Source: Ectocarpus siliculosus
Taxonomy: Eukaryota; Sar; Phaeophyceae; Ectocarpales; Ectocarpaceae
DNA: 64,000 nt
Assembly: GCA_000310025.1 (NCBI GenBank)
Contig: FN649735.1
Span: 1,612,222 to 1,676,221, forward strand
Direction of reading: 5' to 3'
Below, piece by piece: positions 26,528 through 64,000 of the stretch. Each line of letters starts with the position of its first letter. Position 1 is the first letter of the stretch. The notes under the pieces were generated by a model. The model was given only the letters and a program-made list of their open reading frames with translations, did not search any database and was not told where the DNA came from. The position numbers were made by a program, and so were the translations under genes.

Positions 26528-29500
26528 ATCTTTCTATCTATCTCTATCTATCTCTCTCCCTCTTGTCCCTCTTGACCCTCTGTCTCTCTCTCTCGTGGCC
26601 CTCTCGTTGCTGTAGCAGCGCCCGAACGAATATCAACCCCAACTACTGGTATGCGCACCATCCCCCAGAATGCAGCAGAGTTCGTTTTCCATCCCTCCGC
26701 TAACCTGCTGCTGCTCGTCCTCCTCTTCCGCCCTCCCGTGTTCCTATTTCTCCTCGTGTCCCCCCCCCCTTTTTTTTTGTGTGTCGTGCTTTGTTCTTCC
26801 AACAAAAACTGGCTTCAACGACGATTTATTTCGTTTTTGGACGCCCTCCACTCTCTACGTACGCCCGCAGCCTGAAGGCGCAGATGAAGAAGAGGCGGGC
26901 CGAGCTCAACGCTCACTACGCGCGAGAGGCGAGGGAGGCGGCGGCCAAGGCTAGGGCTGAGGAGGAGGCCGCGAGGGCGGCGGCCGCGGCAAAGGCGGCG
27001 CATGGCCGAGGGACTCGCCTGAGCACGGGGGTATTGGTCGGGGGCGGGAACACCCGGTGAGGAAGGGGGGGGGCGGGGGGGGCGTACGCATGTTTTGGAT
27101 GCCTTAGCTGTTAGACCATTGACCACGGGCGGGTTCGGGGCATGCCTTAGCTGTTATACAATTGCCCACGGGTGGGTTTGGGGCACTCGGGTGTTGCTTG
27201 CGTTTTGCAGGTGGGCGGGTTCGTGCGTCGTACAGCAGTTATCCTTTGTCGCAGAGGAGACAAGTCGGGCACGTAGACCCTTCCCGTATTTACCACTTCC
27301 TTGGTTAATGGGCGGCGATGGAAAAGGGGCGGTAAGGGGGCGCGAGCTCTCGATTCAAACAGGATGAGGGAATGGAAAGCAAGGGGATTTGCTGCCCCCC
27401 CTTGTGCGTATCTCTTCGTCTGGGATCGACCGTGCCGCCCGGCGAAAAATGAGCAGCCATCGGTGGTATGTAGGTGTAATTGCGTGCACCCCTCCCCCCC
27501 TCTGAGCCCATTCATTATTATAAAGTACGCGTGCATTCACAGAAAAGACTGCTCGTTCGAGATATAGCCACAGTCCAAGGGTATGTGCCGAAGCCTTTTT
27601 TTGTTGTTGTTGGATGAACACGAGTCGTCGAGGGCACTGATTTAACTGGAATGGAACAGTTGAAAGATTAATGCTTTTATTCTAATAAGAATGGAACACA
27701 GGGGACGCCGTGTCCTTTTTTCCCTTGACGGGATGGAGGCTCGACGAAAAGAGGCGTGCGGGAGGGGCGGGGATATCAAGGAGCGGCGTGAAAAGGCCAG
27801 CAGGTCGAGGTCGGGGTGTTGGGGGCAAAAGCGGTTTGGTTGTCGGAAGACTTTTACTCTAGCTCGTGAAGGCTTCGAGTATCTGGCTTTCTCGATATAC
27901 CCTCCGCCGCATGCCCTCGCAGCCCTTCCCCGTGCCATGTTACGCCGCGCATTTTCTGCCGGTCCCGATCCCCACCAATCAAAAAACACCCCTCTCGGCT
28001 CCTCTCCCCCGGCCGTCTCAATTTGACGTCTCTTTATTGACGTTAATTTTTCGGCGTGTGAAGTTATTCGGGTGTTCCTAGAGAAACTCGCGCCCGGTTC
28101 TTTGCTCTCTCTCGTCGCCATCTGCCCTCTCCTGTCTTCCTTGATCTCTCCCTCTTCGTGAGGGGCGAGGAAGGTTGACGGGAGAGGGTGGGAGGCGCTT
28201 GAGAGAGACGTTGGATGGGTGTGTGCCGTGGCGGACAGGTTTCCCTCAGCTAGAATTGCTGTGAAAGGAGAAGTATTACGCCACGGACATTTGTTGTGCA
28301 GGCGCGGCTGCTGCTTTGTATACTATTGGTACGGTTGTCTTCCCCATAACACACGCTGAGCAGGCGCTCATCACGTTGTGCCAACTAGTAGTTGACACCA
28401 CTTTGAGCTTGGTATCAGACATCTGTGCGTTTCTAGCTCTCATCTTTCGTTTATTCCCTCGGAAACTTCGACAATACTACCTTCTTTTGTCTACTATTTT
28501 GTCATGTGATTTTTTTTGGGGGGGGAGGGTCTCGTTTTTTGGCTTCGGCTCGCGGGCAGTGAATTTGTGCTTGGGCCGCGATAGACGAGAAGAACAGTGC
28601 TTTGCCTGGGGTGCGAAATGAAAGGAGACGATATTTTTCTCGGAATGTTCCGTTTGGTGAGCCCAAAACCTCCGCAATGGTTTGCCGAAGAACAATTTGG
28701 TGGGCACTGCTGCGTACCACTACCGCAATCGAATGGAGCCGCGCTCGCGAAGTTCTCTCGTGCTCGCGAAAGGCGCGGCAGCGCCTCTGTTCCCTCGAAA
28801 CGCGACTCCGACACCGATCACCTTCTCGTGTCAAAGCTCAAGCTCGGTACAGCCGTAGTTGCATGTGTAGGTTGAATAACTAATTTCATCGAGCTGCTTA
28901 CATCGTGCAGTTTGACTTCGATAAACTCGTACTTGTATTTTTTTTGCGACCATCATCCCTTGCGGCTTTCCACCCCTTCCTCTTGCGTGTGGAAATACGA
29001 AAACCCCTCTCCCAAGACAACGGTACGATCCCACCGATCCGGAAGGGGTGATGGGACTGGCGCACTCGAAGGGAAGCAGCGGTAGCAGTTCCGCCGCTGC
29101 CGCTTCCAAGTCGCCGGAAGAAGAACGAGAAGAAGACGAAAAGGAAGAGGACGACGAGGAAATGGAGGAGGAAGAAGTTTGGGAGAAGGAGGAGGACGTG
29201 CAGCTGGACGACCCCGCCGCCGCCGAAGGCGGCGGTGGTGGTGGTGGTGCGGGTGCGGCGGATCTGCTGCTGCTTGGCGGCGGGGCCGGGAAGGGGCTCG
29301 CCATGTCGGACGTGTGCATCGTCGTGGACTCCGGGTTCTCGTTCACGCACATCCTGCCGTTCTACCAGGGCCGCGCTCTGCACAAGTCGGTGAGCGCTGC
29401 TGCTGCTGGTGTGGGAGCGGGCTACAGAGGGCGCCACCGCTTGAAAAACTTGTTGTTTTTGCCCCCCCCCGAGGCTCGTTTCTTGGTTCCTCTGTGGGGT

Positions 29501-31375
29501 TGCTTTAGGATTCGGCTTCAATGGTGTTTGGTGTTAAGTGGACAGGATTCGTACCGTACGTTCAGGTTCTTGAACTTCTCCTTACTTGATGGGATTTCAT
29601 TGACGGGTTCTTCATTTAGTGGTGGCGGTTTCTGAAGTTGTCAGCTTGTTTTCATCCCTCTGACGAGCATGTAGGTTGTTTGGTGCCAACCAAACTAGAG
29701 GGGAGTTGGGGGATGCCGTACATTCCTCTGCATGTGTTGTGTACCCTTGGTAAGTGTGTCTTGAGTTTGTCGTTGGTGGGCATTCGGCTTCCTTTTTTTT
29801 TTATCAGAGCCGGGCTCTACTCGCAAGCACGAAATGGGTCGGGTTGAGCCAGGGGCGGCGAGAACGGGCGGTCAGACACGCGACTGGAATGCCCTGTCAC
29901 TTTTAACACAATATTTTGGTACTATCTTTATTCTCCTACCGTAGTGTCTCGTTTTACCAATGTACTTTTCGCGCACTCTGCTGCCCCCCCCCAACACACC
30001 CTGTGCTGCCCCCCTCACTGCACTCGGTTCCTGTCTTGCTGTATGCGCCTCTTGCGTGCTCTTGGAACCCTTTCCTGTCCTGTCGTATCCAGGCGCTTAG
30101 GGTGAACGTGGGCGGGAAGTTGCTGACCAACTACCTGAAGGAGGTCGTGTCATACCGGCAGTGGAATATGATGGACGAGTTCGAGGTGAGACTTGGCTCC
30201 TCCTCGGACTTGTCTTAGAGCCCACAGGCCTTGTCTTAAGACGCATCGGCCTATTTAAGTTGTATGCCAGTCCAAGAACGGTTGTTCTGCCGGCGTCGAC
30301 TGCGTGTTTCGCGGTGTTGTTCGTGTCGGGTGGTGTTGACAAAGGGCGTGAGCTTGTGCATGTTTCCGTGGCGTTAGTCGTGCCTAGTGCACTTGACAAC
30401 AGGCGTTCACGTCTGCATGTTTCCGTGATATTGTTCGTGCCGAACACGCTTGAAAACAGGCGTTCACTGCTGCTGTATCACTGTCTTAGCTCTCTGTTGG
30501 TGGGCGGTCGGGAACGGTCTTACGATTACGGTTGGGCCATGGTTTTGAGAGATCGGCGCGCTTCAGGCCTGGCGCACGATGGTATTCCTTTGAAGGTTGT
30601 CCTGTATTCGGGACGATTCGACGCGCCGATAGTGGCACGATGATGAGTGATGAGTTCTGGCAGCTTTTTACGTCCCTCTCCCCACGCACGCAGAGACCGG
30701 GTTGGGATTGTCTGCGTGCGCGCGATATTCGAAAGGCTGCTGTCCCTCCCCACCCACCGCCGAATACATTTTTTTAGCCACGTTTGGCAAAATACGAAGG
30801 CACGATTGGCCATCGGTGATCAGTCCTGTGGGGACAACGCTCCGTCCTTTCGAGGACGCGTGGCCAATGGTCTAACAGCAGGGCATGCAAAACATAAGAC
30901 GCCCCTCGCCCCCCCACCCCCCGGTCTCTGACAGGTTATGCAGGACGTGAAAGACTCGTTGAGTTACGTTAGTCTCGACCTGGACGCCGATCTTCGCGCG
31001 GCACGCAACGTCAGACCAGGCAACCCGATCGTCAGGTGAGCACAGCGGCTGCTACTATACCGCTTCTCTAAGGAACGGTGCTGTCGATGAAGAACAGTTC
31101 GCGGCGGTCGAGTCTTCAAATTTGTTTTTCTCCCAGTGATGGACGCTCAGTCGCGGCGGCGGGGGCGGCAATCGGTGATCATCCCGTGAGTCTTCCCTCG
31201 CGCATTCGCACGCACGCTCTGTTCTCTATGTGTTTTTCGCTGCTGTTCCTATGGCGTTCGTGAAGTGCTGTTGCCTCTCTGCTGTTGTTGTCGATGCTGC
31301 TGCTACTGTAGTTGCGTTTTTGCTGTTGTTGATGGCGTTCGAACAGTGCTGCTGCCACTGTTGTTGTCGTTGCTA

Positions 31376-35489: not shown

Positions 35490-38400
35490 TACCGGGCTAC
35501 GCATCGATCGGAGAACGCCCATGAGGAAGGAATCTGGAGTGTAGCTTGGACCGAAGCAGACAACATCCTGTCCGGGAGCGTTGACGAGCGCGCGAGAGTA
35601 TGGTGAGCGATTAACAGACAAGTAGTGCCAACAACACCTCCTCGATCGTACAGCTTTTAGAAGGAAAGCATACGCCGATCATCATGCGTTGTTTGCTGCG
35701 AAGCGTGTTCCACAACTCTCCCTTACGTCAGAGGAACTCAAGGACTTCAGACACGAAAGTTTACTGCTCCCGGTACGAGGCATTCACAACGGCAGTTCCA
35801 CGTTTGGCGACTGCTTTCATGTTGGTTGGCTGTTGACGCTCACAAATTCCGTTTCGCTCAACCGCGTAGGAATCCTGTGTCTGTAGTCCTCGTTATCGTC
35901 TCATGCCAGTTGCCGGGCGCTGGTGAAACCGGAGCAAGTTGCTCTCGCTGCGGACATTTTGGCAACGAAGTCAAAGTCGGCTGTAATTACATGGAGAGTG
36001 GCGGCTGCTTCCCTGGGAGGATAGTGTCCATTAGGGCCGTTAGGGTGTCCTCCGGAGCCCCCACCCTCCCACGCCTCCGTTTCGTCCGGGACAAGAAACC
36101 ATGGTAGAAACTGCGGTAGATATGCCTAGGGAACATTTGTCTGTGGAGTGTCCACAAACACAAGTCAAGCCCGTGGCACCGCTTCGCTGCACCCCCACCC
36201 CCTGTTTTGTTCTTCTTCCCTCGACATAGGTGTTCGGAGTTGGCCCCCGTGCACTCTCTCAACGGCCACCGTTTAGGGGTCTTGAGCGTTCGGGCATTCA
36301 ACCACGGCAAAGGTGAAGAGGCGTCGCTTGTTGCGGACACGCCGGAGTGGGGCGCGGGGCGCGCGTTGTGTTTGGCTGGGTGGTTGGGCGGACGGAGCAC
36401 GCCGGCGGCGGTAGGAAAAAGGAGGGTGGCAGGAAAAGGCAGTTGAGGCTTGAAGCCGTGAGGTGGAGGCTGAAACGGCTTGCTTGCTGCCGAATCTGTG
36501 AGGGAATCAATTGGTTCGAAACCATCGTTGGGCAGGGGTGGTTCCGCACACGCTTATCGAAGGGTCTTGGGGTATGTACCGGCTTGCGCTGAGGCTGCTC
36601 GGTTGAGGCCAAGTGCTTCCCGCGGTTCTCGGGGTGCACCTCGTCTAGCTTCGGTGCGGCACGTGAACACCGACCCATATCGTCGGCGCTTGCTTTCCTG
36701 TGCGCTCCCCTGAGTTTCGGCATTGTACCGTAGAATCCCAAGATCTCTCTCGAGTACGGTGCCCTGCCGCTTGGACCATCTCTCTCAAGTACACGGCAAC
36801 CCGCGACCCGCCCCCTGCCCACTTCTTCTCACACGCACACACACGAATACGTTCACGCACGGATCGTCCCGCCGATGCTTGCCCGTGACCCACAGAGGCG
36901 GTGTCAAGTTCGATAGATAGCTGCATCCGATTCTGGGACTTGGAGAGCGGGGAACAGACCGCTGTGGAGGAGCCGGGACCAGGTAAGGCGGCGAGGGCTA
37001 AACGTTACATGTACCCTGGCAGACGCTTCGCTTGGATATCCTGTACGGGGGGATGGGGAGGGGGGGGGGGGGGGGTACTCATAGTCGTGCATGCCGTAGT
37101 CGTTAGACCATTGACCTCGCACCCCTACAAAGACCGGGACGGAGCACGCCGGGTTCTCACCGGACCAGGCTCTCACATCACCAAGCGCGAAGCGCCGTGA
37201 GGTATTCGGCGAGTCGCATGAAGGGTGAGCTGCATCCTGCTAAGGGTGTTCGGCATCTTGTGCTTACTTGCTTGCCTACGGATGACAGCTGCGTATGACT
37301 TGATTTATTTTCTGCTGCTTTCACTTCCAGAGACAGCTGTAAGCGGTGTGTGACTGCCTCGAGGGTGCTTGACTAATATTAACACAACGTGCGATCATCC
37401 CCTTTGCGCGGAGTCAGGGTTCTCGACTCCGCACAACATAATCTACTCGACCACCATTCATGGTTACCGCAAAAAGAAAAAACTGAAGGCAAAAAAAAAA
37501 GCGCTAACCTGGTTGCCGAGCTCACGAAGTGATTGGTTTGTTTTACAACATCGCTGCCAAGCGACGAAAACCCAACCCCGATGGCAAACATCGGGGGGAT
37601 GGGGGGGGTTACTCATAGTCGTGCATGCCGTAGTCGTTAGACTATTGACCTCGCACCCCTACGAAGCCGGGACGGAGCACGCCTGGTTCGCGCCGGACCA
37701 GGCTCTGACATCACCAAGCGCGAAGCGCCGTGAGGTATTCGGCGAGTCGCATGAAGGGTGCGCTGCATCCTGCTGAGAGTGTTCGGCATCCTGTGCTTAC
37801 TTCCTTGCATACGGGTGACAGCTGTGTATGACTTAATTTATTTTCTGGTGCTTTCGCTTCCAGAGACAGTTGTAAGCACTTTGCAACTGTCTCGAGGGTG
37901 CTTGGCCAATTTAACACAACGTGGTGCGATCATCCCCTTTGCGCGGGGTGAGGGTTCTCGACCCCGCACAATAATCTACTCGACCACCATTCATTGTTAC
38001 CGCAAAAAAAAAAAGCCAAACGGGAGGGTGTTATTGTTGTTGCTGATTTCGTTCTTGTTGTTGTTGTCGGTGGTGGTGTGTTGGTAGTGTTGGTGTGGTT
38101 GCTGCTGTTGCTGCTGTTGGTGATGTTGTCGTTGGTATTGTTGTTGTCTTGCCTCTCATTCATCCCGGCATGCATGCTATGCTTGTCGTTCGTCTTCGTT
38201 CTCTTGTCTTCCTCTGCCGATTCGTGCCTTTTTACTCGCCCCATCAATGTACATATGGCCGTTACCGTGACAATCCAACCAGCACAACCAGTCATGTACG
38301 TCGNNNNNNNNNNNNNNNNNNNNNNNNNNNNNNNNNNNNNNNNNNNNNNNNNNNNNNNNNNNNNNNNNNNNNNNNNNNNNNNNNNNNNNNNNNNNNNNNN

Positions 38401-41400
38401 NNNNNNNNNNNNNNNNNNNNNNNNNNNNNNNNNNNNNNNNNNNNNNNNNNNNNNNNNNNNNNNNNNNNNNNNNNNNNNNNNNNNNNNNNNNNNNNNNNNN
38501 NNNNNNNNNNNNNNNNNNNNNNNNNNNNNNNNNNNNNNNNNNNNNNNNNNNNNNNNNNNNNNNNNNNNNNNNNNNNNNNNNNNNNNNNNNNNNNNNNNNN
38601 NNNNNNNNNNNNNNNNNNNNNNNNNNNNNNNNNNNNNNCGTAGCTGTCATCCGTACGTAAGGAAGTAAGCACAAGATGCCGAACACCCTTAGCAGGATGC
38701 AGCTCACCCTTCATGCGACTCGCCAAATACCTCACGGCGCTTCGCGCTTGGTGATGTGAGAGCCTGGTCCGGTGAGAACCCGGCGTGCTCCGTCCCGGCT
38801 TTGTAGGGATGCGAGGTCAATGGTCAAACGACTACGGCATGCACGACTATGAGTACACCCCCCCCCCCCCCCTCCCTCTCTCCGCCTTTTTGCTTTTTTT
38901 TTCTCCCCATAACGTTTTCCTATGGCAGTGGAGGCGTGGACGTTGGCGGTGAGCACGGACGACAAGCTCCTGGCGTCGGGAACACAGAAGGGATCCGTCA
39001 ACCTCTGGGCTTTGGATGGGCACAAAAAGGTAACCAGACAGCGGCATGGGCGGATTGACCGTACCCCTGGATAGATAACCCCCCAACCCACCTGTGTCTC
39101 GCCTGCTTGGTTGCTACCCAATGAGGCGCGACTTGCTGTTGTGGCATGCGGGTACAGGTATCGCCGCCGCCATGTTTGGCGGGTAGGTTAGACTTGATTT
39201 TCTACACGTGCTCACCGCCAGAGATGTGGTGATATATATGGCTGACCCCGAGTGGGATATATAAGAGTCGACACGCACGCAACCGGGGCTACGGGTCCGA
39301 CAAAGAGGGGTAGGTGGTTGTCATGGGAATGAAGCCCAGTGGCAACGCGGGGGTTCGACTGCGGCCTCAAACAAGATTGAGAGTTGTGCGCTCATCTCCT
39401 TACGTCGCCGCGAGAGCGGGGATGTAAACTCCGGGTGCAGCGGAAGGATTGGTGTTCCTGAGTTGAAAAGTCAATTTTTGAATAGAGCGTCTTGCTTGTT
39501 AGCTCGCATCCTCGGCCATCCGGTAGTCTTGGGGATGGTATGTGAAATCTTTTTTTTTCATGGGTCGAGGGCTTGGACTTGTTCATCGACCGCATCTACT
39601 AAATACTACTGCTGCTGTTTTATGCGTGTCTCGATGTGGTATGAAAACGAGGGTTTTGTTTAGGAGATGCTTGGGCGTGGAATGTCCTCAAGGAATGACA
39701 TCCGAACAGGTATTCTCCCCAGATCCGGTCACAACTATCTGCCTGTCAACGCCATGTTGTGTCGCGATGTATCCCGCCAAGATATACCGCACCGTGCGAC
39801 GCCCGTTCCAGGGGCGAAACGCCTCGACCACGCTGCCGTCCTGTCTCGCCTAAGTGTCGTGTTACGCTAACGCTTGAGTTTGTGTGTTGGTGGTGGGGCA
39901 GGTGGCATCGATGGAAACGAGAGACAAGTTCGTGATGAGCGTGGCGTTCAGCCCCGACAACAAGTACCTGGCCTCGGGGGGACTGGACGGGTTGGTCAAC
40001 ATCTTCGATGTCGAAGTGAGCTTGTGTTTAGGCAAGACAACATATAGGCGAGCCGTTGTGTCCAGCACTCTTTGCCGCGGTGGTGGGGGATTAGTACTCA
40101 TAGTGGGGCTGGCCGCAGTCGTTTGACCGTTGAACTCGCGTCCCTACAAAGCCGGGACGGAGCACGCCGGGTTCTCACCGGACCAGGCTCTCACATCACC
40201 AAGCGCGAAGCGCCATGAGGTATTCGGCAAGTCGCATGGGGGGTGCGCTGCATCCTGCTGAGGGTGTTCGGCATCTTGTGCTTACTTGCTTGCGTACGGA
40301 TGACAGCTGGGTACGACTTGATTTATTTTCTGGTGCTTTCACTTCCGTAGACAGCTGTTTTTCTGGTGCTTTCACTTCCGTAGACAGCCGTAAGCACTGT
40401 GTAACTGCCTAGAGTGTGCTTGACCAATTGGACACAACTGTGCGATCATCCCCCTTGCGCGAAGTGAGGGTTCTCGACCCCGCACAACATGATCTATTAT
40501 CTCGACCATTTTGTCGGACGAACCTACTCAAGCCTCGGCTACTGAACACACCAAGCTGAGGATGGGTAGGAAAACGGTACTTGTTGTGGCTGGCGCGGGA
40601 TGTAAATCCACGACCACCTGCCCAAATGTTGACCCCAGCTAACCAGGAGATAATGAACGGCTTTATGCTCAACGGAAACGAACAGGGGGGGAACGGTAGT
40701 TGCGGCCTACTCAAACGATGACGCTTTGGCCTGTGTTTGTAATGAAATATACAAGGACAACCAGCTATTGCCCCCCCCCACCACTATCCGCCTCCGGCCG
40801 CTGCCGCGACCATCGCCATTAGCAAGCTAAGCTGCACCAAAAGCTGGAGGGCCACGCGATGCCCATCCGCAGCCTGTGCTTTTCAGCGGACGGCTCGCTG
40901 CTCTTCACGGCGTCGGACGACATGCGGGTCAACGTCTACGATGTGTGAGTTCTAAGCGAAACAAGCTCGCTTTTTTGTGTTCGACGCACGGGACGCGTCT
41001 TTAGTGTTACCTAGGTGCTCGCGGTGCAGTCGCTGCCGGTGTTGGTGTTGTTTTGCCCATGCTGCGCTCCGGTGCTGCTGTTTTTCGGGTGGCTTTCCTC
41101 TTCGTCTGTGCTTGTACTGGGTTTGGCCTGTAGGTGTTTTCTGTGTTTGTGCTGGTGTTTGATGTTGACTCTCCTGTCTCTCTCGCGCTCTGTCTGTCTG
41201 TTTGTATGTCTGTCTGTCTGACTGTCTGTCTGTCTCACCCCCCCCCCCCCCCTCCGCCCTCCTCTCTCTCGCTCTCTCTCTCTCTCCGTCTCTCTACATC
41301 TCGTCTCTCTCTGCTCCTCCCCTCTCCAATGTATATCGATGTCGTACCCAACAGGAAGAACACGAGTCTGGTGGCGTCCTTCACGGGACACACGTCGTGG

Positions 41401-43995: not shown

Positions 43996-45580
43996 ATGTT
44001 GCCTCCCCATCCCCTCGATCAGCTCAGGTGAGCACGGCTGCTGTTCTGTACACGTCCCATGGGTTACACAGGGAAGCGGTGATATTGGATTGTCCAGAGA
44101 GAATGGTCACGAGACTCGGCGGTTGGATCACCGACAGGAGGTAAAATGTGTGCTCACGCTCCTGTTGCCCTAATTTGTATTCAACCCGGCTGCTGTTGCT
44201 GTGCTGTTCTGATCACTGATAGCGCCGCCGAGATAACGGCCGTGGCAACAGCGATCAAGGAGAGCGATTATGACGGGAAGCCGGAGGGCCCCGCCGCGCC
44301 TCGCTTCAACGCCATCACGCTGGCCGAGCCTGCCAAAGCCGACCTCTTAGAAGCCTCCCTCGTGTGTCCCAGGAAGGCCCAGGTATGCATGTACGCACTG
44401 GCTCCATTTTACCCCAGAAGTGTAACTGCCCGCCGGTGGGGCGCGTATCTCTGAATCGTATCAATTACCGTTTCATACGAGCGGGCCGGCCTATTGGGAG
44501 GTTTTCGCACCCATCGGAGGAAGCTCACCGGGTGCATCGCTGGGTGTTGTCGCTAGAGCGGGGGTGCGAAAACATCGAAATATTACCTTGCTTCGGGCAT
44601 ATGTAGTCTAAGATTGATTGTGTACTTCCGGCTATGCGGGCACCTGGTTGGTCTGTAACGGTTATTCGATGACATCGGCGTTTAATTGTGTGTGTGTGCA
44701 CCTTGCTCCGAATCCCATTTTGTACCGCAAAGCTGTTGGTAAGCTGGTACCCGCACGCCGCTACGGTGTTATTCAGTACCTATCGGGGTCATCGCACTGG
44801 AGTACCTGCACAGAAGCACCGGGATGCGAGTACAGAACACCGTATCACGAGTATGGCCGCTATGGTGTACTCGGCGTCGCAAGTATCCAGGTTATCGCAA
44901 CGGGCGTACCTTCGAAAAACTACACGACAAAGAAAGTACATGTATTTCCGCAGCAGTGCCGAGGTTCCCACCCGTCTTGGTTTTGGCACCGCGCCGGGAA
45001 TGCGATAAAAAGCTAAGAGAGCAACGGAAAATGTGATCGCACCCAGTTCATTCACTCGTAGGCTACGTCACGCGTGAAGCAGGCCTCCTGTCCTGCGGCT
45101 GCTGCACAGCATTTCACCGCTGCCGCGCTTACAAGACCCGGGAGATATTTCCGTATAGATGGTGTTGCTCCGACCCCCCCCCAGTGGGAAGGCGATGGCG
45201 CGCCGGCAAAAGCACGCTTGCAAAAGTCTGTCTTCTTTCCATCCAAACTCTACCATATAAATTTCTCGTACTATTGAGTTCGACGCCATCTACATTCGAT
45301 GCCGCACACTACGCTCCTTGAAAGGTAATATTCATGTGTTCGGAATCTACGGCTGCGTACGAGGCGCTCGTGGAGATCATGTCAGCGGCCGGCAGCGATC
45401 CGCCTGTGGCTGCGGTGGTTTCATGCAAGCCGCTGGGCCAAGGCTTTCAGCCGCTGCTGTCGCCCGACGATTGCGATCTTGCGGAGAAGATCGTCAAGCT
45501 TGACGCCGGGGTGGCAAAGCTGCTGGAGGAGCGATACGGCATAACGGACATCGGTGAGAGAGAGACTGAGAGAGAGAGAG

Positions 45581-45621
<41 letters not shown>

Positions 45622-45624
45622 CAC

Positions 45625-45673
<49 letters not shown>

Positions 45674-47851
45674 GAGCGACTCGCTGGTGGAGCCCTTGCC
45701 TATTGCCTTAGATCCAGCGAATCTATCTTGCGAGTGTGGGCTAGCAAGCGGGCAGAGGCAGCGGTGGAACAAAGGCTACCGCCATGTTGGTGCAATCATC
45801 TTCTTTGTGTCTCCTCTTGACGATTGTAGGCTGCTCTGGATATTTCCCAACACGCGATTAATGTAATACAATCTCCTGGGAGTTGGCTTTCACGTCTCGT
45901 TCGGGCTCATACCTGATGCCAACAGCAGGTGCGAGAGAAGTAGGCATCGACCACATCGGGATCTTGTCGCTCTTTCTACAAATATCTCGGTCGCGGCGGC
46001 TGTTGTGTCCAAAACTCTTGTCTGTACTCTCTGTGCGCCGTGCCTTGGAAAACGTGCTTTGTTACATAGGTTTGCTCGCTTGCGATCCTTGGAGCTATCA
46101 TGTCACTGTCGACGACGGCAACACCCCACCCCTGGGTTGGCGCGACGATGGGCTTCCCGCGAGACTTGTCCAAACGTTCCTCTACATGCGCGACGACGCT
46201 GACGACAACCACTACGCTCACCCGGTAATAAAGGGTTGCGCCGCCCGCCCCTAAGTTTTTCTTGGCGCTGCGAGAGGCTAAACCAACCTGTGGCGTGCCT
46301 TTCCTGACGTGATCGAAAGGTGTACTGAATTGTGTGACTTCTGCGTAAGCCAGAGGGCGTGCAAGTGTTGAAAAGGGAGCAGTTTCCCCTTCCGGTAGAT
46401 CGCGCCACAACCTCTCGTGCGGCACCGATTGGCCGTCCCCAGTCGTGTCAAATGTGAGCATTCTCAACCTCTTCTTTGAGTGCGTCCACCACATGCGTGC
46501 TTCGAGAAGGATGCTTGGCCACCACAACTGGCACTTCAGTTTTCACCGTGACAATATCACTCCTCGAACATATCCCGCTGTTGATCAATATATGCTTGCA
46601 TCCCGCGCGCCTTATTTCTCACGAACATATACACACACCCGCGCCCCTCTCGCCTCCCCTACACTGCCAAACCCGCCGGACCACGGCCGCCGCCGCCACA
46701 GCTTGATATGCTTCCGGTGGTGGATCTCAACGCCCAAAAGGTGGTCCACGTCGACAAGCAGGTCGCCGCCCCCAAGGTGCCCAAGGGGTCCGTCAACTAC
46801 CACCGCAACAAGGTCGCCAGCAACACGTACCTCCCGACGCGGTTCCGCTCTGATCCGCCGCGCCCGCTGGAGATCACCCAGCCCGATGGCCCGTCGTTCT
46901 CAGTGGACGGGAGCTTGGTCTCGTGGCAGCGGTGGACGCTGCGCATCGGCTTCAACTATAGGGAAGGGCTAGTTCTTCATGATGTCAAGTTCGACGACCG
47001 TCTAGTGATGTGGCGCGGCAGCCTCGTCGAGATGGCGGTCCCATATGGGGACCCCAAAGAGCCGTTCACGAGGAAGTGCGCCTTCGACGTCGGGGACTAC
47101 GGTTTAGGGTTCTGCACGAACTCACTCGAGCTGGGCTGCGATTGCCTCGGCCATATCCACTACTTCGACGCGACGCTGAACGACAGCCGCGGGCAGCCGT
47201 ACGAAGTCGAGAAGGCGGTGTGCATGCACGAGGAGGACGCGGGACTCCTGTGGAAGCACGTTGAGTACAGGAACGGGCACAACGAGAGCCGCCGGTCGAG
47301 GAGGCTGGTCCTGTCATTCATCGCGACCGTCGTCAACTACGAGTGAGTTGTTAGCCTTCAGTCCGCGGGCTTGAAACGGCAGAGAAGCTGCACAGTTCTC
47401 CGTAGGTCACAACGGAATGCTGACGATGTGGCATCGGTTTTCCATCTCTATATGCTGTCCAGGGTTCAACTGCAATGCGCTGCGCGCTTTGTGTCTGAAT
47501 CACATACTCGGCCTGTCAGTCCGTTCAGCCCACCCTCTACCTAACCAGCCCCTCTCCTCGATGATGCTGCATCGCCCCCCGCGCGTCGTGTCCATATCAT
47601 CCACTGCTGCTCTACTGTCTTGCGTTCCGCGCACCGAAAGGTATCTGTTCTACTGGTACCTGATGCAAGATGGCCGCATCGAGTTCGAGATTAAGCTGTC
47701 GGGCGAGCTTTCGACGAACCTCCTTTCGGAAGGCGAGTCGACCCCGGAGCACGGTGTTATGGTGGCTCCTGGGGTCAACGCCCAGCTCCACCAGGTACGC
47801 GTAACTCCGGTTAAGAAATATCTTTCTCTGTGTGTGGGTCTGTGTGTGTGT

Positions 47852-47891
<40 letters not shown>

Positions 47892-49323
47892 TTTCGGGAT
47901 GGCTGAACCGTTGTGTCACTAATGTTTGCCGCACCACAGTACGTAGTGAACGAACGGCCGCGGGTTTCTCAAATTCCATGATGTTGGCGTTTGTCATGCA
48001 ATCAGCCTTCTTCCGGAACGTCCTGAACATGAAGCGTCCAACTCCATCCGCGACAGAGTACCTTTTCTCACGATGGGGCACCAGCAGTTGTCAAAGCGGC
48101 CCGGCGTCGCGCACGGATCTGAGCACACCCTTCGCCCCCCGCCGCCGTTCCTCCCGTGCATATTTCATTATTCATTGCCCTCTTTTCCCCAAAACCGCGC
48201 CCCCCGCCCCCGCAGCACATGTTCTGCGCTCGCCTCGATATGTCCGTGGACGGCCACAAGAACACCGTCATGGAGGCGGACGTGGTCCGTGTGCCTCGTG
48301 GCGAGGACAACCCCGCAGGCAACGCCTTCCGCGCCCAGTACACCCCCCTCGTCACGGAGAAGCAGGCCCAGCGGGAGGCGAACCCGCGGGCCGCCCGGTC
48401 CTGGTTGATCCAGAACCCTTCCTCGATCAACCCGATCAACGGGAAGTCCGTAGCGTACAAGCTCGTGCCTCAGACATTCGGCCCGACGCACCCGCCGCTC
48501 ATGACGGGAGAGGACAGCGCGGTCACCGCCCGGGGCGAGTTCGCGACCAAGGCTCTCTGGGTTACGCCGCACCGGGATGATGAGCGGTGGCCGGCCGGCG
48601 ATTTCACGGTGCAGAGCACCGGCGGGGAGGGACTCCCCGCCTGGACGAAGCACGACAGGTGAACACAAAACACTATTCTTCGCGTGTTGTTGTGACACGT
48701 TCGTGACGACGGTCGAAGGTTTGGAGGGCCGGGGCGGGCACGTGGTAGAGGGAACCTTCTCTTGTCAGTGCTGTGTTGTGGAGGCTCTGCGTGCATGGCG
48801 AAGCCGTCTCTCCGTGTCTTCGGATCATTGGTGATCATTAACGAGTTTGCCGGCGAAAACCCGTCATCGCACCGACACCCGAACCCGCACTACTCCACCC
48901 ACGTACTCCCGGGCATTCGTTGTGAAAGTTCTCCAAACCGCATGAATTGTTGACAGTGATGCTTCTTAAGCTTTCCGAACCCGAAGCCAAGTGAAATCTG
49001 GAGCTACACCATTCTCGGCAAGGACTGCACGCCCACCCAGCAATGCCAATGCAAGAGAGCGTGATACACGTAGGAATCCGGTAGCGCACACATCTCCTGA
49101 TCCCCTCTCCGCGTGTTGGCGCAGGAACGTCGAGGGCGAGGACGTGGTCTTGTGGCACTCTTTCGGACTCCTTCATGTGCCCCGGGTAGAGGATTTCCCC
49201 GTCATGCCGTGCGAGTCGACGGGCTTCACCCTCAAGCCCGACGGGTTCTTCTCGGGCAACCCGACGATTGATCTCGCGCCGAGCGCAGGCGGGGACGGCA
49301 AGAGCAAGTGCTGCTCGCACTGA
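43996..49323 (+). CDS. Copper amine oxidase (TPQ primary-amine oxidase), copy A
   Basis: Oxidatively deaminates primary amines to aldehyde, ammonia and H2O2 using copper and a self-made topaquinone. Exons: 43996-44027, 44223-44382, 45325-45553, 46070-46224, 46702-47342, 47641-47794, 48216-48658, 49125-49323; phases close to 670 codons, normal for the family. The TPQ tyrosine is Y405 in TVVNYEY (split by intron 5). Copper ligands are H456 and H458 (HQH, split by intron 6) and H622 in GLLHVPRVEDFPVMP. The catalytic base is D321 in AFDVGDYGLG, followed by NSLELGCDCLG. The N-terminus has the HPLDQLSAAEI start of the family; no signal peptide and no SKL-type end (it ends KSKCCSH). Relative to copy B, the upstream ATG is GTC here, so the first available start is 43996. 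The substrate cannot be told. Confidence 0.93.
45556..45672 (+). repeat. (GA)n and (ACAG)n microsatellites in intron 3 of amine oxidase A
   Basis: GA dinucleotides with two CTGA interruptions, then about ten ACAG tetranucleotides, starting right after the GTGAGA donor at 45,554. The corresponding intron of copy B (57,383-57,902) lacks them. Confidence 0.95.
47841..47888 (+). repeat. GT and CT microsatellites in intron 6 of amine oxidase A
   Basis: Short GT run followed by about 14 CT units. It is absent at the same place in copy B and therefore arose after the duplication or was lost there. Confidence 0.9.
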
Positions 49324-50850
49324 TTTCGGAGTGCTGCTTGCCAGGACACGAGCACCAGGCAGCACTTGACGTGGGGTGTGTATGGTGCGCTTATTTTCCT
49401 GGTGTGAGTCGGGGCAGGATACAAAAAACGCCGGTTTTGTGCCATCTTGAGTCTCGATTTCTTACAACTACGCTTTCACCACCGCGAGCACAGGCTATCA
49501 CATAACAGGGAATAGTGAATAGGATCCATCGCTGAGCTGTGTTTCTTTATCCTACTGTCAAATTCGTAACGTAAGCCTCACTATCTGAACGGGATATTTC
49601 TCGTTTGCGGGCACCTACTGATGTCCTTGAGTTGTGTCGAAGTTCTGTACATGTATATATATCTGAACAACGGATGGGAGCGGGGTGCGGGGCAAAGGGT
49701 AATGACGGTACAGGGAGGGTCCTGTTTTTGTGCCCATTTTTTTAGGCCGGTTGTCCTGTTCAAGGCCGATGAAATCGCATAGCATACATTGATTTTCAAT
49801 TTTTCTCATTCTCTTAATAGGGTCCGGTGCCCCGTAGGAGGCCGGTGTTTTCCCTGAGACCATAGTGGCCTTAAACAGGGACCTATACTGTAGATACTGC
49901 TGTGATGCGATCGGCAGGCGTGGGATACGGTCGCCACGAATGCGATGCGTCTCTCACCGGGTTATGTGCTGGTCTTCGGACAACCTAGTTTAGCCCTGCC
50001 TTGATTTGGTGACAATTTCTATTTGTATTTTAGTGCGGTGTTTAGTGGTGCGAGGTAAGCGGGCGCGCGTTTGATGACGTGTACGAGCGTGGAATCGATC
50101 AAGTTTTCATACTATGTTTTTCTGCGCTGTTGGGTTCGACATGGCGGGCGCCCCATCGGAGATTGGGGTGGCGAAAGCACAAGTTGCGTCACGTGGGCGT
50201 TAGTGCGGGGGTTACAGCAGGCAACGCTCTTGCGAACATCAGATGTAGGTACGTAGGCGTTTCGTCAGACTTGCGCAGAGGGATGTGCCGCGTTCGCTTG
50301 CAGTAGTCTCGAACGGGGTGACAACAAATGTACAATACTTGAGTGATCCGCTCGCCCTCATCCATCACAGGGAAGGTTGACGTCCGGAACTCGATTTGGG
50401 AGGAAGGCCACCTGGAGAAAATTCGTGTCTGGCATCGATCATTCATCGAAGTTCAGCAAGCAGAAGAGGGTAGTAAACCACTATCACATGGGTACGTGGT
50501 TTGCATTGTGTACTTGCATACAGCCATATCTTCCCTCAACAGGGTAGAGCGAAAGGCGGTAGTGAACTCTGTAAATTTCATTCTGAAGACAGCGATGACC
50601 ACGAATTACAAGAATCAATCGGACAAACAACGTAGGCTCGAGGTACATCAGAAAACGGTCAGGAAAGGCTCTTCTTTCCATTCTCAAATTGCTAGCGAAG
50701 GATTGAGGTCTCCCTGTCGCTGTCGGTAGGATACCCTTTCAACGGCTCCTGCCGAAGGCTACACAGGTTCCAAGATGAGCAGCGCGCTCAGGGACGCGGG
50801 GGCGGGGAAAGATGCTGAAGCTCAAGGGCACCGGATAAACCACATGTCAT

Positions 50851-53251: not shown

Positions 53252-56200
53252 ATGTCCGCGAGCGGCAAGTCCCCGTCCAGACAGCAACTCTACTGCCATC
53301 TCCAACAGCCAGGAAGAAACATGTCGTCTACCCACCCCCTCGATCAGCTCAGGTGAACACGGCTGCTCTGTATACACGTAACGAGGACTCGTGTAGCGGG
53401 ATTCCTGACGTCCTGCTCAAAATGGATCAACGGCCAATCCGGGGGGCGGGGGTCGATTGTGTAGTAACAAGTCATGCAAAAAAACTGTTCATGGTTGTGT
53501 TGTATAGGATTTAGAATGGTGATGCAGCACATGACCTCTACATCACCTCTCTTGTTTGCTTCAGTATGGTTTTTTCATGTTTGGAGGCGGGAAGCTTGTT
53601 GTCAGACGCGCGGAAGAGAAAGGTTGACTCAGGGCCTTGGTGTATTAACGAGTGCGCCGGGCATGCTAGCCCATGCACCACAGCAGAAGGGGGACCGCCC
53701 CTCTACCAACACATACCGCTATGATTCACGAAACCCCCTAGCTAGATCTCCATAGATCAGTATCGAGTACACAGTATCCCCCTACTCTGTACTCCATATG
53801 ATCTAAGAAACTCTTCAATCATCACTATAGGTAAAAAGGCGATAGTCAATGCCAAACAAACAACTTAACAGTCGTTCATCATGCCATCCACTCAAACCTC
53901 ACAATACCGTATAATAGTAGTTCTGTGACCTCCCCTGAACCTTACGATGCCAAACGCATTTTCCCTCAGCATACAGTCTCCTCAAGAAGGTTCGTCAAGG
54001 ATGAATCAAATCTAAAATCCAAAACACAGAAATAAATGCAGTCAAGATGAAGAAATACCCCAATGTGTACATACGGAAACACCAAGGAAACCCTACGACT
54101 TACTGCGGATACCTAAATATGAACCGATATTCAACAACCTCCCCCGCCGGGATATCCTTCCTCCAACATGAAAGATCCAATCAAGCCTTCAAGGCTATAT
54201 ACGTGTGGTACGAGAAGAAGCTAAAATCCAAACATCAAACATCAACCCGTGCAAGCCAACACACTGCTTGTTGTACTGCAGCGGGGGTCATGGTAAGACA
54301 TCCCCCCCCCATGATTGTCGATGGCAGTGCAACCAGCAGTGATTCTGCATGATCGTGTTTTGGAGGCGGGCAGCTTGTTGTCAGAAGCGCAGAGAAGAAA
54401 GGTTGACTCAGGACCTTGGTATATTAACGAGTGCGCCGGGCATGCTAGCCCACAGCAGAAGGGGGACCGCCCCTCTACCAACACATACCGCTAATGATAC
54501 ACGAAACCCCCTAGATCTCCGTAGATCAGTATCGAGTGCAGAGTACCCCCAAACATTTCACTGCGTTATACATAAACCTACAACAGCAATGAAAGTATAG
54601 GTTTTGCTAGTACTACACGAAATCCTATGCAACAAACGTCTTCACAGAACAGGAGGGAAGAAAAATTCGGACTGGGGCAAGGGTGCCCGAAAAATGTTGT
54701 CCCTTCCGATTATTTTCTTTTTTCCCCTTGTTTTTGAGCTATTTTTTCATCGTATGCATTCAAAAGTGCACGCATCAACCCTGTTGAACGTGTCGTACCG
54801 AGATCAAACGCTATCTGTGACACTAAAATGCCCATTAAATGCCGGAGCTAAGAACGTGTCGTTGGCACACGACAGTCATCCACATCGTCCACACCACATC
54901 TACCCTCGAATCAAGTTTCAGTGATTCCAAAAGCCGGGAGTAGCATCCCGCCTCCACGCGCGGGTATGAAGAACCCGCTCGATGGAAACCGCGGAACGCC
55001 TTTCATGTAGGAGCTCAAAATACAATTAGATGAGATGAGAGTGTTATGTGGTATCGCCTATGCCGCCGTTCCGCCTACCACTTTCCGACATTCAGTCTCT
55101 CTCTCACGCACAGTACGCGAGCTAAACCGCCGTTTCGGGGTGCGTTTACGCCCCCTCGAGCGTACGTCAGGCTCCTCTTCCTTCTCCTGCTCCCCTCTTC
55201 CTCCTCCTCTTCATCCCCTCTTCCTCTTTTTCTCCCCCGTACCCCGACCCCTACCCCCTTCCCTCCCTCTTCCTCACTGCCCTCTCGCCCTCTTCGCTCA
55301 AGTCCGAGGCTACCTCTTCTATACACCGGAAACATACTGGCTAAAATATTGCGCCGCAACAGCCTGGGCTAGGCATACGCACCCCGATGAGGGTGCGCTG
55401 ACCATGCGAACCCCACTGAGGGTGCGCTGACCATGCCCTCCTTCTCGTTGTTTATACTACACGCATACAGACGCGGCGAGCGCCCTCGCGCGCACACGGC
55501 GGCTATAGGGGGCACGCAGATGAATAATAACCTTACAGGACACGGTGGCCCTTTCATAAGTACGGGGGGGTGGTCACTTCGCACCTTCCCCCAAAAAACA
55601 ATTCCCCCATAAGAAAAGGGTACCTAGGTGTGCATTATTGTTTTATGAGGCACCTTGGCTAGGGGAGGGGGCAGGATGTCAGGGATCCCGCTATTATGCG
55701 CAGTGGCCCCCTTGTGTACATGCCCCGTGGGTTACCGTATACGACACAAGATAACATACGCCCTGAACCGATATTCAAAGCTCGATTACGCCGCGACGAA
55801 GAGGACGCAACGATACATTTTCGGAAAGCTTTCGACGAGACGGCTTCAAATCCGCCATTTCGGCGCTGTGACGCTTTCTGCTGTTGAGAAATTGAGCTTT
55901 GAAAATTGGTCCAGTGTATTCAACTTGTGTCGTATTCAGTAGGCAATAAATCGGTGATGGCATTGAATTGTCCAGAGAGCATGGTCACGAGGCTCGACGA
56001 TTGGAGTACCAACAGGATGCGTGCGTTCCGGTTGCCCAAATTTATTTTCAACTCGGCTGCTGTTGCTGTGCTGTTCTGTTCACCTACAGCGCCGCCGAGA
56101 TAACGGCCGTCGCAACAGCGATCAAGGAGAGCGATTATGACGGGAAGCCGGAGCCCCCCGCGGTGCCTCGCTTCAACGTCATCACGCTGGCCGAGCCTGC

Positions 56201-59200
56201 CAAAGCCGACCTCTTAGAAGCCCCCCTCTTGTGTCCGAGGAAGGCCCAGGTATGTATGTACACCCTGGCTCCGATACCCCCATAGTCCAAACTGCCCGCG
56301 TGGGGCGTGTATCGCTGGGAATCGTATCAGGTACCGAAATCTTGGAATGGACGGACCTATGGAGGTGTTCGCGCTCTTCGGAGTAATCCCCCGTCGGTTG
56401 CACCGATCGGTGTTATCGCTCGAGCCGAGTTGCGAAATCATTATTAACGTGCGGCTTCGGGCGTGAGCTTGCGTGCTACCGGCTACGGGCCCCTTGTTGG
56501 TCTGTAACGGTTACTCGCTCACTCGGCGTTTGCTTGGTGTGTGTGTGTACCTGGCCGTGAACCCTGTTCCGTAGCGCTGCTGATGCGCTGTCCCCAGCGA
56601 GCGCCTCCGGTTTTATTCAGTATCTATCGCACCTATCGGGGTCATCGCAGGTGCCTGTACAGAACACCGTAGCACCAGCAAGGCCGCTATGGCTTACTTT
56701 GCGTATCACCTACATATATCGTTATCGCACCGGGGGTGCCTTCGAACAACTTATCCATTGTACTTGTATTTCCGCACTAGTGCTGAGGTTTTCCCACCCA
56801 TCAGGATTATGGCACCGCACCAGGGTGCGATAGAAAACCAAAGAAAGAAAAAATTGAAAGGGGGTCGCACCCGATGCACTCGTTGCGTGTGGTTTCGGCA
56901 CGGTTGAAACAACCCTCCTGGGTAGGGCAGAGTGCATCTGTATTCCACCACGGCCGCGCTTGGAAGGCCTGGGAGAACTTTCCGTGTAGACGATAATATT
57001 CCAACCCTCCCTCCGGAAGGCACCCGTGGGCGCCGGCGAAAATACTTGGATATAAGCATCTGTCTTCTTCTTTCCATCCCAAAACTCCCACCACTATATC
57101 TCTCGCCTTGAGGTCGACGCCCTCGACATTTGGTCCCGCACGCTCGTGGAAAGGTCATATTCATGGTGTCGGAATCCACGGCGGCGTATGAGGCACTCAC
57201 GGAGATCACGACGGCGTCCGGCCGCGATCCGCCCGTGGCCTCGGTGGTTTCTTGCGAGCCGCTGGGCCAAGGCATCCAGCCGCTGCTGTCGCCCGGCGAT
57301 TGCGATCTCGCGGAGAAGATCGTCAAGCTTGACGCCGGGGTGGCGAAGCTGTTGCAGGAGCGATACGGGGTAACGGACCTCGGTGAGGTTTGTTTCAGCT
57401 GAAAGTTCGATCCGGCAATGCTGGTGGAGCCCTTGCATCTTTGTTTTAAGATGAAACCATGTGCTGTATTTAGCGAGTGTCGCTCGCTGGAGGGTAGCAA
57501 GCGAGCAGAGGTGGCGATGGGATAGATGCTACCGCGATTTTGATGTAGCATGCACGGCCTTCGGATCTCCTCTCTACGTTTGTAGCCGTTCTGGGAATTG
57601 TCCAATAAGGCGGTTATTTTGTGTCTTGGGTCTGAATAATGTAGACGCGGGTATTCGAGTACATATTTTGGGGTTTGGTACGGCTATTCTGCGACGTTCG
57701 CCATTATATTGGGTCAGTGGAAGAAGGGGATCCCATCTCATACCTGAAGACGCCAACAGCATGAGCGCGAAAGAAGTAGGCAGCGTTCACATCAGGATCT
57801 TGCCGCTGTATGTACCCGTCTCTCGGTTGTGGCGGCTGTTGTGTCTAGAAAGCCCGTCCGTACGCTCTGTTCGCCGTGCTTTGAAAACGTGGTGCCTCAC
57901 AGATTTGCTCGTTATCGACCCGTGGAGCTATCACGCCACGGTAGACGACCGCAGCGCCACTCCTCTGGGTTGGCGCGACGACGGCCTTCCCGCGAGACTG
58001 GCTCAAACGTTTCTATACATACGCGACGATGCCGACGACAACCACAACGCTCACCCGGTAAAAAGGGTAGCGCCGCCCGGCCTCTTCCGTAGTAGATTTA
58101 CTTCAGTAACGGTAGACCTCGATTTTCTTGCTGTGTACTTGAATGCCTGCGCGAGGATAAAACCAACCTGTCGGCGTGCTTTCCCCCGACACGATCTAAG
58201 GGCGCGTTGAGTATCTACCACTCGTGCGACAGCCAAGAACGTGCCAGGGGTGAATGAATAACGCCAGCTGTCAAGTAGAACAGGCCACAACCTCTTTCTC
58301 GACACCTGCTGACCAGATTCGCTCGTGAGTATTCTCAAACTGTTCTTTAAACGTGCCACGTGCTTGCAATGAGGAGAAAGGAGGCTTGACCAGCACAGCT
58401 CGCATTCTAGCTTCTTACGAGGAACCGCTTCTGCAACACCTGCTGTACAAAATTCCCATTTTCATCCCCGCCGCATGCCCTGTTCCTCATGCACGGGCAC
58501 ACACCGCGCCCTTCCCGCCTCCCCGACGCCACCAACCCCGCCGGACCATCGCCCCCGCCGCCACCGCAGCTTGATATGCTTCCGGTGGTGGATCTCAACG
58601 CCCAAAAGGTGGTCCACGTCGACAAGCAGGTCGCCGCCCCCAAGGTGCCCAAGGACTCCGTCAACTACCACCGCAACAAGGTCGCCAGCAACACGTACCT
58701 CCCGACGCAGTTCCGCTTTGATCCGCCGCGCCCGCTGGAGATCACCCAGCCCGATGGCCCGTCGTTCTCAGTGGACGGGAGCTTGGTCTCGTGGCAGCGG
58801 TGGACGCTGCGCATCGGCTTCAACTACAGAGAGGGGTTAGTCCTTCATGACGTCAAGTTCGACGGCCGTCCGGTGATGTGGCGCGGCAGCCTCGTCGAGA
58901 TGGCGGTCCCATATGGGGACCCCAAAGAGCCGTTCACGAGGAAGTGCGCCTTCGACGTCGGGGACTACGGTCTAGGGTTCTGCACAAACTCACTCGAGCT
59001 GGGCTGCGATTGCCTCGGCCACATCCACTACTTCGACGCGACGCTGAACGACAGTCGCGGGCAGCCGTACGAAGTCGAGAAGGCGGTGTGCATGCACGAG
59101 GAGGACGCGGGACTCCTGTGGAAGCACGTGTATACCAGCGGGCACAACGAGAGCCGCCGGTCGAGGAGGCTGGTCCTGTCATTCATCGCGACCGTCGTCA

Positions 59201-62897: not shown

Positions 62898-64000
62898 GGG
62901 GGGGGGGGGGCGTACTCTTATGTTTTGCATGCCTTAGCGGTTAGACCATTGACCACGCGTCCTCGAGAGGACGGAGCATTGTTCCCACGGGACCGATCAC
63001 CGATGGCCAATCGTTCCTTCCTACTTTGCCAAAGGTGGCTCAAAAATGTCTTCCGTATTCTGTCTGTCCTAACGATATTACTTCCCGCCTTTTCAAACCA
63101 CTTCCCACTCCGCAGTACACCTACCGTCCTCTCCTCTCTATTTCATGCCGCAAACATCTCCCTGTACGTCCCTTGTATTTTTCCCAGCTCAGTCATGTAC
63201 ACTTCCCTCTCCTCTTCGTAACAAGGACATTTCGCGACTACATGAACACGGTCTTCGCATTCGAAGCCGCAATCACATTCGAACTTGTCGTCTTCGTCGT
63301 CTACCGTCCTATGTCTTCGTCGACGTTCTCGAAGGCCTATGTCCCCAGTCCTGAATTTGACCTTGAGCTTTGTCCCTGCATCCTTTGGTCCATGTAGGTA
63401 ATCCTTGAACCCTATTCCTTCTTTCAACATTCCGTACACTTCTAGACCCTCCTTATCCTCGGCTTCTTTCCTTAGATTCTGTTCTTCTCTCTCGGCACAA
63501 GCAACAGATATCTTCTCCTTGAATCCCTGTAGACCCTCCGTTTCCAGCGTTTCATCTTCGTCGATGTCTAACCCCTTCCATATGTCCTCTACAACCTTGA
63601 CCCATTCCGTGGGTTGTCTAACCCTCTTTTTGTTTGCCCACTTCGCCTCCCATACTATTCTCGGCAACCTCTCCTCTCCCATCCCGCACATGCGATACTG
63701 CCATGTCAGCTTCCTTGCGTCTCTTCCCGACCGTAGGGATTGGATCCCCAATTCTGCGCTGACGGCTGCATTACTTATCTTGGAGCATCCTAGGATGATT
63801 TTCGCTGCTTTCATCTGCACCGCCTCGAGTTCTTTCACTACCTTCTTATTTCCTTCCCATACCTCTCCGGCGTGCTCTAGCGGCGGTACGATTACGCTCT
63901 TCAAAACCGTCAATTTGATGCGTGTATCGAGGTGCCGGTTTGCGAGTATTGGGTGCAGCTTCCCTGCTCGTGCTTTGCCCTTTTCCGCTACCTTAGATAT
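62898..64000 (-). mobile_element. Non-LTR retrotransposon (LINE), 3' part, running off the window
   Basis: On the - strand: the end of a reverse-transcriptase ORF (stop at 63143-63145), about 245 bases of 3' UTR, and a terminal poly-C tract (G-run 62,898-62,910 on the + strand). Poly-C in place of poly-A is unusual. The same 3' end recurs at 30,761-30,921 and 27,061-27,185, showing the family has been mobile in this genome. The 5' part lies beyond 64,000. Confidence 0.85.
63143..64000 (-). CDS. LINE ORF2 C-terminal part: reverse transcriptase thumb region and zinc knuckle (partial)
   Basis: The frame is open from the window edge to TGA at 63143-63145, about 285 residues. It shows the post-RT region typical of non-LTR elements: NRHLDTRIKLTVLKSVIVPP, then GEVWEG, an ELEAVQMKAAKIILG helix, and AELGIQSLRSGRDARKLTW. 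The C-terminus has a cysteine/histidine cluster (CDCGFECEDRVHVVAKCPCY) like the zinc knuckle at the end of LINE ORF2. The palm motif (YADD-type) is not in the window. No in-frame stop is seen, so the copy may be young. The apparent ATG near 63,913 is internal; the ORF enters from outside the window. Confidence 0.85.
   Translation of the reverse strand: MSKVAEKGKARAGKLHPILANRHLDTRIKLTVLKSVIVPPLEHAGEVWEGNKKVVKELEAVQMKAAKIILGCSKISNAAVSAELGIQSLRSGRDARKLTWQYRMCGMGEERLPRIVWEAKWANKKRVRQPTEWVKVVEDIWKGLDIDEDETLETEGLQGFKEKISVACAEREEQNLRKEAEDKEGLEVYGMLKEGIGFKDYLHGPKDAGTKLKVKFRTGDIGLRERRRRHRTVDDEDDKFECDCGFECEDRVHVVAKCPCYEEEREVYMTELGKIQGTYREMFAA

Follow-up and report, generated by a model that had tools for sequence, protein, structure and literature searches.

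A short interspersed nuclear element (SINE)-like repeat of the brown alga Ectocarpus siliculosus shares the end of its 3' tail, including a terminal run of Cs, with a long interspersed nuclear element (LINE), and both kinds of element appear to insert preferentially at C-tracts. The copies that drew attention to it lie in a window of 64,000 nucleotides (C10:1612222-1676221), and genome-wide searches covered 189.5 Mb in 492 contigs. Two qPCR primers published for E. siliculosus (PMC2546422) have exact matches there, the forward primer for alpha-tubulin two and that for the ubiquitin-conjugating enzyme one, as expected of Ectocarpus or a very close relative. The reading we favor, at a probability of about 0.74, is target-primed reverse transcription by the LINE enzyme, with the short element mobilized in trans through the shared poly-C-ending tail. 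The enzyme of the LINE, which is of the RTE-X type, would combine an apurinic/apyrimidinic (AP)-type endonuclease with a reverse transcriptase (RT) and would nick a C-tract on its G-rich strand. The G-tract would then pair, by its 3'-OH end, with the poly-C tail of a LINE or SINE RNA and prime the first strand. A second nick, a few to ~12 nt beyond the C-tract, would duplicate the C-tract together with the adjoining sequence (here called X), leaving the order flank - (C-tract + X) - element - poly-C - X - flank. Several features of the sequence point this way: (i) the shared tail, (ii) the C-tails themselves, (iii) C-tracts overrepresented at the 5' junctions of LINEs and SINEs alike, (iv) duplications of C-tract plus X in a minority of copies, and (v) the nesting of elements in one another's C-runs. 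From these we infer which strand is nicked, that tail and target pair, and that this enzyme acts in trans.

The short element and the tail it shares with a LINE

Four copies of one repeat lie between the exons of a WD40 gene in the window (Pfam WD40 profile match, E 1.9e-8, at 39905-40015). A preliminary description of this DNA had noticed these copies and a LINE at 62,898. The four copies and the LINE 3' end are indeed there, but the unit of ~400 bases that it proposed is wrong; the full unit is 533 bp. The elements in the window are as follows.

37061..37593, minus strand: SINE-like copy a, full length (533 bp) with one 5' monomer; C-tail at the low-coordinate end
37594..38014, minus strand: SINE-like copy b, ~400 bp, 5'-truncated at position ~114 of the majority sequence
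38639..38872, plus strand: SINE-like copy c, 3' part alone; the remainder lies inside the N gap 38304-38638
40079..40508, minus strand: SINE-like copy d, ~400 bp, 5'-truncated at ~141; 83% identical to the majority sequence
37443..37453 (copy a) and 37976-37986 (copy b), minus strand: A-box-like TGGTCGAGTAG, with T-rich runs just upstream in element orientation
62898..64000, minus strand: 3' part of a 5'-truncated LINE, RTE-X-type, with a C13 tail; extends ~260 bp past the window (locus L009)
62898..62958, minus strand: LINE 3' tail common with the SINE, 61 nt including the C-run, 85% identical to copy a
30762..30914, plus strand: fragment of the 3' end of the LINE at 62898, 87% over 157 nt
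27068..27184, minus strand: diverged LINE-type tail, with a 43-bp tail module repeated and a G-run on the plus strand

The C-tail of copy b adjoins the 5' end of copy a, placing the two in tandem. The N gap directly adjoins copy c, and copy d has a short, interrupted C-tail and a 33-bp internal duplication at about 40326-40391.

Across the genome, the head of the element has 1906 matches (978 and 928; up to 2 mismatches) and its body has 2377 (1239 and 1138; up to 3 mismatches), with no match to the reversed control for the head or to the control for the body. Seventy copies were chosen by position. After 5 with incomplete 3' ends were dropped and 8 truncated ones were set aside, 57 full-length copies remained, and their majority sequence is 535 nt with a C-run at its end. 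Median identity to that sequence is 97.2% and median pairwise identity 94.3%, in a sample biased toward young copies since it was listed by a head match with 0 mismatches. When a 221-bp 3' query was used, the best 40 matches listed comprised its own place (399 bits) and 39 other copies, all at 395 bits; such near-identical scores are a sign of recent spread. The longest stop-free frame of the majority sequence runs to 55 codons in the sense direction and 99 in the antisense. The unit is thus short and without coding capacity, as expected of a SINE-like element.

Many copies carry further 67-bp repeats 5' of the full unit. Counted by script, there is one 67-bp unit in 25 of the 57 position-chosen copies, two in 20, and three in 12. 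The extra units sit upstream of the innermost one with C-runs as joints, and several arrays have linkers in common, such as CCCCCCACT preceding the last unit. Poly-C is also how the element ends, as the preliminary description had stated: in the fetched DNA, a run of at least 3 Cs was parsed in 108 of 117 distinct SINE-type 3' ends and in 11 of 14 LINE-type ends, with median lengths of 12 and 13, respectively.

How far does the likeness to the LINE extend? Copy a matches the LINE 3' end at 85% over 61 nt including the C-run (E 2.9e-13), and the majority sequence of the 57 copies matches the LINE tail at 82% over 51 nt (E 2e-10), with a local score of 57 where none of 2000 mononucleotide shuffles exceeded 27. 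Two weaker colinear islands, recognized by eye (one of them also a 14-nt match), would lengthen the shared stretch towards ~90 nt. Some terminal ~100 bases had been proposed as shared; of these, the last ~50 nt alone are significant in their own right. The motifs named at the same time were borne out in part. In a motif search of the window, exact GGCATGCA occurs in copies a, b, and c and in the LINE, but not in copy d, and exact GGTCAATGGTCTAAC only in copy a, the LINE, and the tail fragment at 27110. As judged from these alignments, homology to the LINE is confined to the 3' end and survives at the consensus level, where its loss would, by the preliminary description, have told against the reading. 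They support tail-sharing with a LINE, as does the preference for insertion sites that the two elements have in common.

The partner is recognizable as a LINE from locus L071, where two separate pieces match Exo_endo_phos (PF03372, E 4.5e-11) and RVT_1 (PF00078, E 5.8e-34); the clade label RTE-X is taken from passages of PMC12477816. Its C-terminal 339 aa, read from L009 at 1365-2384 on the minus strand, match no Pfam profile with E up to 0.001. By eye, the C terminus has a Cys/His-rich, zinc-finger-like end. At least three more tail types have the same core and C-run (L029/L061, L091, and L010). The third tail type, of ~100 nt (L061 ~1920-2000 and L029 ~2520-2600), begins at the same base in both loci, AAATGTTGGTGG, and ends in poly-C; it may be a tail-only mini-element. 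Six tail-only fragments of the SINE, 47-73 nt long, were also seen (L012, L027 with two, L053, L112, and L122). Four of the six have an upstream C-run of at least 5 and four of the six lie beside another copy; they are possibly extreme 5' truncations.

Several tails could, by eye, form a CGTCC...GGACG hairpin, though tests for a conserved fold did not demonstrate it. RNAalifold, given 9 tails from about 5 tail types in an alignment that misplaced part of the SINE rows, returned 15 pairs, 3 of them with two-sided change, and a covariation term of only -0.49. Taken singly, four tails showed no advantage in folding over shuffled sequences (z -0.68 to +0.93).

C-tracts at the insertion sites

Truncated copies offer the cleanest test of a target, because full-length SINEs bring their own 5' C-run. 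Thirty-three 5'-truncated copies could be read on their left flank (12 others could not and were set aside), and 23 of them have a C-run of at least 5 within 40 bp upstream, against 3.97% of 20,000 40-mers from the window (binomial 3.6e-25). By type, the count is 8/10 for LINE-type copies, two of the ten being of the third tail type, and 15/23 for SINEs. Full-length copies can be used once the C-run touching the element is removed. Among 55 of the 57 position-chosen copies, 20 then have a C-run of at least 6 in the ~63 bp of flank, compared with 3 of 38 stretches taken 237-300 bp upstream (Fisher p 0.0016) and with 2.2% of random 63-mers. G-runs of at least 6 were found in 3 of the same 55 flanks.

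Could these C-runs have nothing to do with the choice of target? They might be derived from the element itself or arise by slippage after insertion, with nesting inflating the count. In full-length SINEs a C-run does separate X from the start of the element, and C-runs join the 67-bp monomers. By a strict pattern, the tail of another element is present in 11 of 84 readable full-length flanks (5/55 position-chosen and 6/29 best-scoring), and 9 of the 33 truncated copies are nested. Removing those nine, however, leaves plain cases that lack the element's own 5' end, and an upstream C-run is present in 15 of these 24 (LINE-type 5/7, SINE 10/17; binomial 8.8e-16). Wherever an X was identified, moreover, the C-run stands on its flank side and is not part of it, and three LINEs with different truncation points keep one and the same order of C-run and X. 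An absence of target preference is, in our estimation, unlikely.

Target-site duplications (TSDs), which the preliminary description had proposed looking for, speak to the same question. The 57 copies and 31 best-scoring ones make 88, of which 10 were dropped for N in the flanks, leaving 78. In a count anchored at C-runs, an X of at least 6 nt stands right after a C-run on both sides in 12 of these 78 full-length copies, whereas mismatched pairs show this in 20 of 6006; two of these 12 copies have a TG or AC repeat as X. Full-length copies with a legible duplication have the layout flank - C-run - X - C-run - monomers ... poly-C - X - flank, as in L060, where X is AGATGCTGT following nine Cs. 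The three truncated LINEs provide further examples. For the LINE in the window, the 5' flank reads ...CTTA-(C)n-TGACTC and the 3' flank (C)n-TTGACTC, a TSD with a one-T difference. X is GGGTC in L071 and TCCGGCGATG in L074/L075. The latter insertion sits at the C-run preceding a SINE, so that its unfilled target is known from the SINE family.

Not everything fits the proposal of C-tract targeting, and the following points weigh against it. Ten of the 33 truncated copies, including copies b and d in the window, have no upstream C-run of at least 5, and a unique X of at least 6 nt is absent in 66 of the 78 full-length copies. The missing X might be explained if the duplication lay wholly inside the C-run, where it would be invisible. 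L014 has a plausible X without a preceding C-run, and L035 has a 6-nt X after a single C. In a full-length LINE on C15 (L076/L077), the 5' C-run is present and no unique X was seen, while the ends of a LINE on C131 are unreadable (no 5' end located, and an N gap at the 3' end). C-run lengths in a draft assembly may also be wrong. Finally, the model does not account for the additional C-run that separates X from the 5' end in full-length SINEs. It was seen in L016, L033, L060, and other full-length SINEs, in L016 despite a truncated first monomer, and it is absent from the three truncated LINEs (L009, L071, and L074/L075). The RT could have added it, or it could be encoded in the template.

Taken at face value, these flanks suggest that the C-tract preference is strong, not absolute, and common to LINE and SINE. 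That the two share a target supports a common enzyme, independently of the similarity of their tails. Under target-primed reverse transcription at C-tracts, a fresh C-run also comes with every insertion, and the tandem position of copies a and b agrees with this. The unusual 3'-end recognition that had been suspected from the poly-C terminus can now be tied to such targets.

The head of the short element and its promoter

What drives transcription of the short element? A weak hint of an RNA polymerase III (pol III) A box had been noted in the preliminary description, and the motif, TGGTCGAGTAG, is indeed a perfect match to the A-box consensus, at position 141 of the full element. The element would then be a classical pol III SINE with this box in its internal promoter, and truncated copies starting near 92-141 would reflect its transcripts. 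A long-form B-box-like site with two mismatches follows on the sense strand at 165, and 7 of the 23 readable truncated SINE starts fall at 92-141. The distance from A to B is just 24 nt, however, and the short form of the B box occurs once on the sense strand, at 199 and with one mismatch; internal A and B boxes at the promoter spacing that strictly marks a SINE were not found. Runs of T terminate pol III transcription, and T13 at 94 and T10 at 114, both upstream of the A-box-like site, should end pol III transcripts begun further upstream. Of the 65 position-chosen copies whose 3' end is complete, 57 have the 5' monomer, which such a promoter would leave untranscribed. Nor are the starts at 92-141 independent of the motif: 5 of the 7 come from copies picked by a pattern that spans it, so conservation and cluster are not independent evidence.

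A pol III head was also sought by similarity. Rfam found no tRNA, 5S, or 7SL likeness in window positions 36900-40700 (E up to 5) or in one two-monomer copy (E up to 10), and the only tRNA that ARAGORN reported over 25 loci was a tRNA-Lys next to a copy in L120. The tRNA-derived head that the preliminary description had considered was thus not recovered, and beyond the A-box-like site and weak B-box-like sites its pol III idea is not supported. In L120, a tRNA-Lys(CTT) gene at 650-723 directly adjoins a full-length SINE; the adjacency is probably due to chance. A discrete short form starting near 112-141 was considered as well and set aside, as readable starts scatter over 20-475, with the 7 of 23 mentioned above at 92-141, in a sample partly chosen by head pattern. 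A classical pol III SINE is, on balance, improbable.

What drives transcription is thus inferred not to be a simple internal promoter for pol III. The arrays of up to three units with common linkers look inherited, and transcripts should therefore start at or upstream of the first unit. The better guess is a promoter of the pol II type, or of another type, within the monomer.

Might the head instead have come from the LINE? No match to positions 1-440 of the SINE improves on E 1.2 in the LINE DNA compared, which represents one LINE family: L009, L071, L076, and L126, with L072 and L074 (mostly flanking). Together these cover the 5' untranslated region (UTR) (L076), the endonuclease (L071), the stretch bridging the N gap of L071 (L126), and the RT and 3' end (L071 and L009). 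The 5' end of the main LINE is sharp, with 19 main matches and 3 partial pieces all beginning at query positions 152-154 of 949, and its 5' UTR contains no SINE monomer. The 5' UTR of the main LINE was rejected as the source of the head. That the 533-bp unit is an internally deleted LINE, the possibility raised in the preliminary description against its own reading, has precedent in several RTE-linked short elements (entries labeled "5'-end of RTE" in PMC3747384) and is most improbable here, given the sharp 5' end, the monomer-free 5' UTR, and the lack of any match outside the tail in the main LINE (the LINEs behind the L029/L061, L091, and L010 tails were not part of the comparison).

Elsewhere in the window, positions 44157-49333 and 56024-60923 form direct repeats ~11.6-11.9 kb apart, in blocks 79-98% identical, apparently a gene duplicated in tandem, whose downstream copy resembles a copper amine oxidase by eye.

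Relation to known elements and significance

The family described here is almost certainly RTEX-N1_Ec32, an Ectocarpus element presented in PMC12477816 as non-autonomous and possibly a SINE, ~600 bp long and with >6000 copies. The relevant passages of that survey report that its 3' end is conserved with those of the RTE-X LINEs RTEX-1_Ec32 and RTEX-2_Ec32 and that the origin of its 5' region is undetermined. The identification is by description (size, abundance, genus, and partner), the consensus sequences not having been compared. The element here measures 533 bp plus 67-bp repeats, and its 2377 body matches, from a stricter search, are fewer than the >6000 copies of RTEX-N1_Ec32. Tail-sharing with RTE-X LINEs is accordingly already published for Ectocarpus, in the part of PMC12477816 that treats these elements. 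The new part is the model of C-tract targets and poly-C priming. The term "poly-c", the one wording looked for, is absent from the main text of PMC12477816, and none of the titles or abstract openings listed in searches of an open-access library concerns a poly-C-tailed non-LTR (long terminal repeat) element.

Tail-sharing pairs of SINEs and LINEs are well represented elsewhere: the relevant section of PMC3747384 counts 58, with CR1 and RTE as the predominant partner clades. Like the tobacco TS SINE with its RTE partner and the eel SINE, the Ectocarpus element combines a shared 3' tail with a terminal repeat. It differs from such pairs in that the repeat is (C)n and in that no tRNA, 5S, or 7SL head was found. 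Entries in PMC3747384 give RTEX LINEs of green algae the termini (CA)n, (CAA)n, (CCAT)n, (ACAATG)n, or (CTTGTAA)n and RTEs of flowering plants (TTG)n or (TTGATG)n; (C)n is not among these. Simple repeats are also the targets of a group of microsatellite-targeting non-LTR retrotransposons (Kojima and Fujiwara 2004, as cited in PMC5035012). Here, by contrast, a strong preference leaves exceptions, and what is targeted is a tract of a single nucleotide, C.

Mammalian L1 and Alu also match a homopolymer tail to a homopolymer-like target with which it can pair, their target sites being TTTT/AA. Here the match would involve C and G instead of A and T, and the shared tail suggests stringent rather than relaxed recognition.

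The combined picture has three parts: RTE-X LINEs and at least one short element would use a system primed by poly-C at C-tracts, insertions would seed new landing sites, and the SINE-like head would bear a non-pol III monomer promoter. As a whole it is tentative, and we put it at a little under even odds. Even so, the remark left open by the 2025 Ectocarpus survey, of a possible SINE with a 5' region of unknown origin, becomes testable in terms of C-tract targets, poly-C priming, tandem 5' monomers, and no recognizable pol III head. If the model is true, homopolymer-tail retrotransposition would be matched to C/G tracts instead of A/T, and the landing sites of new insertions in a brown-alga genome, older copies of the elements included, would be predictable.

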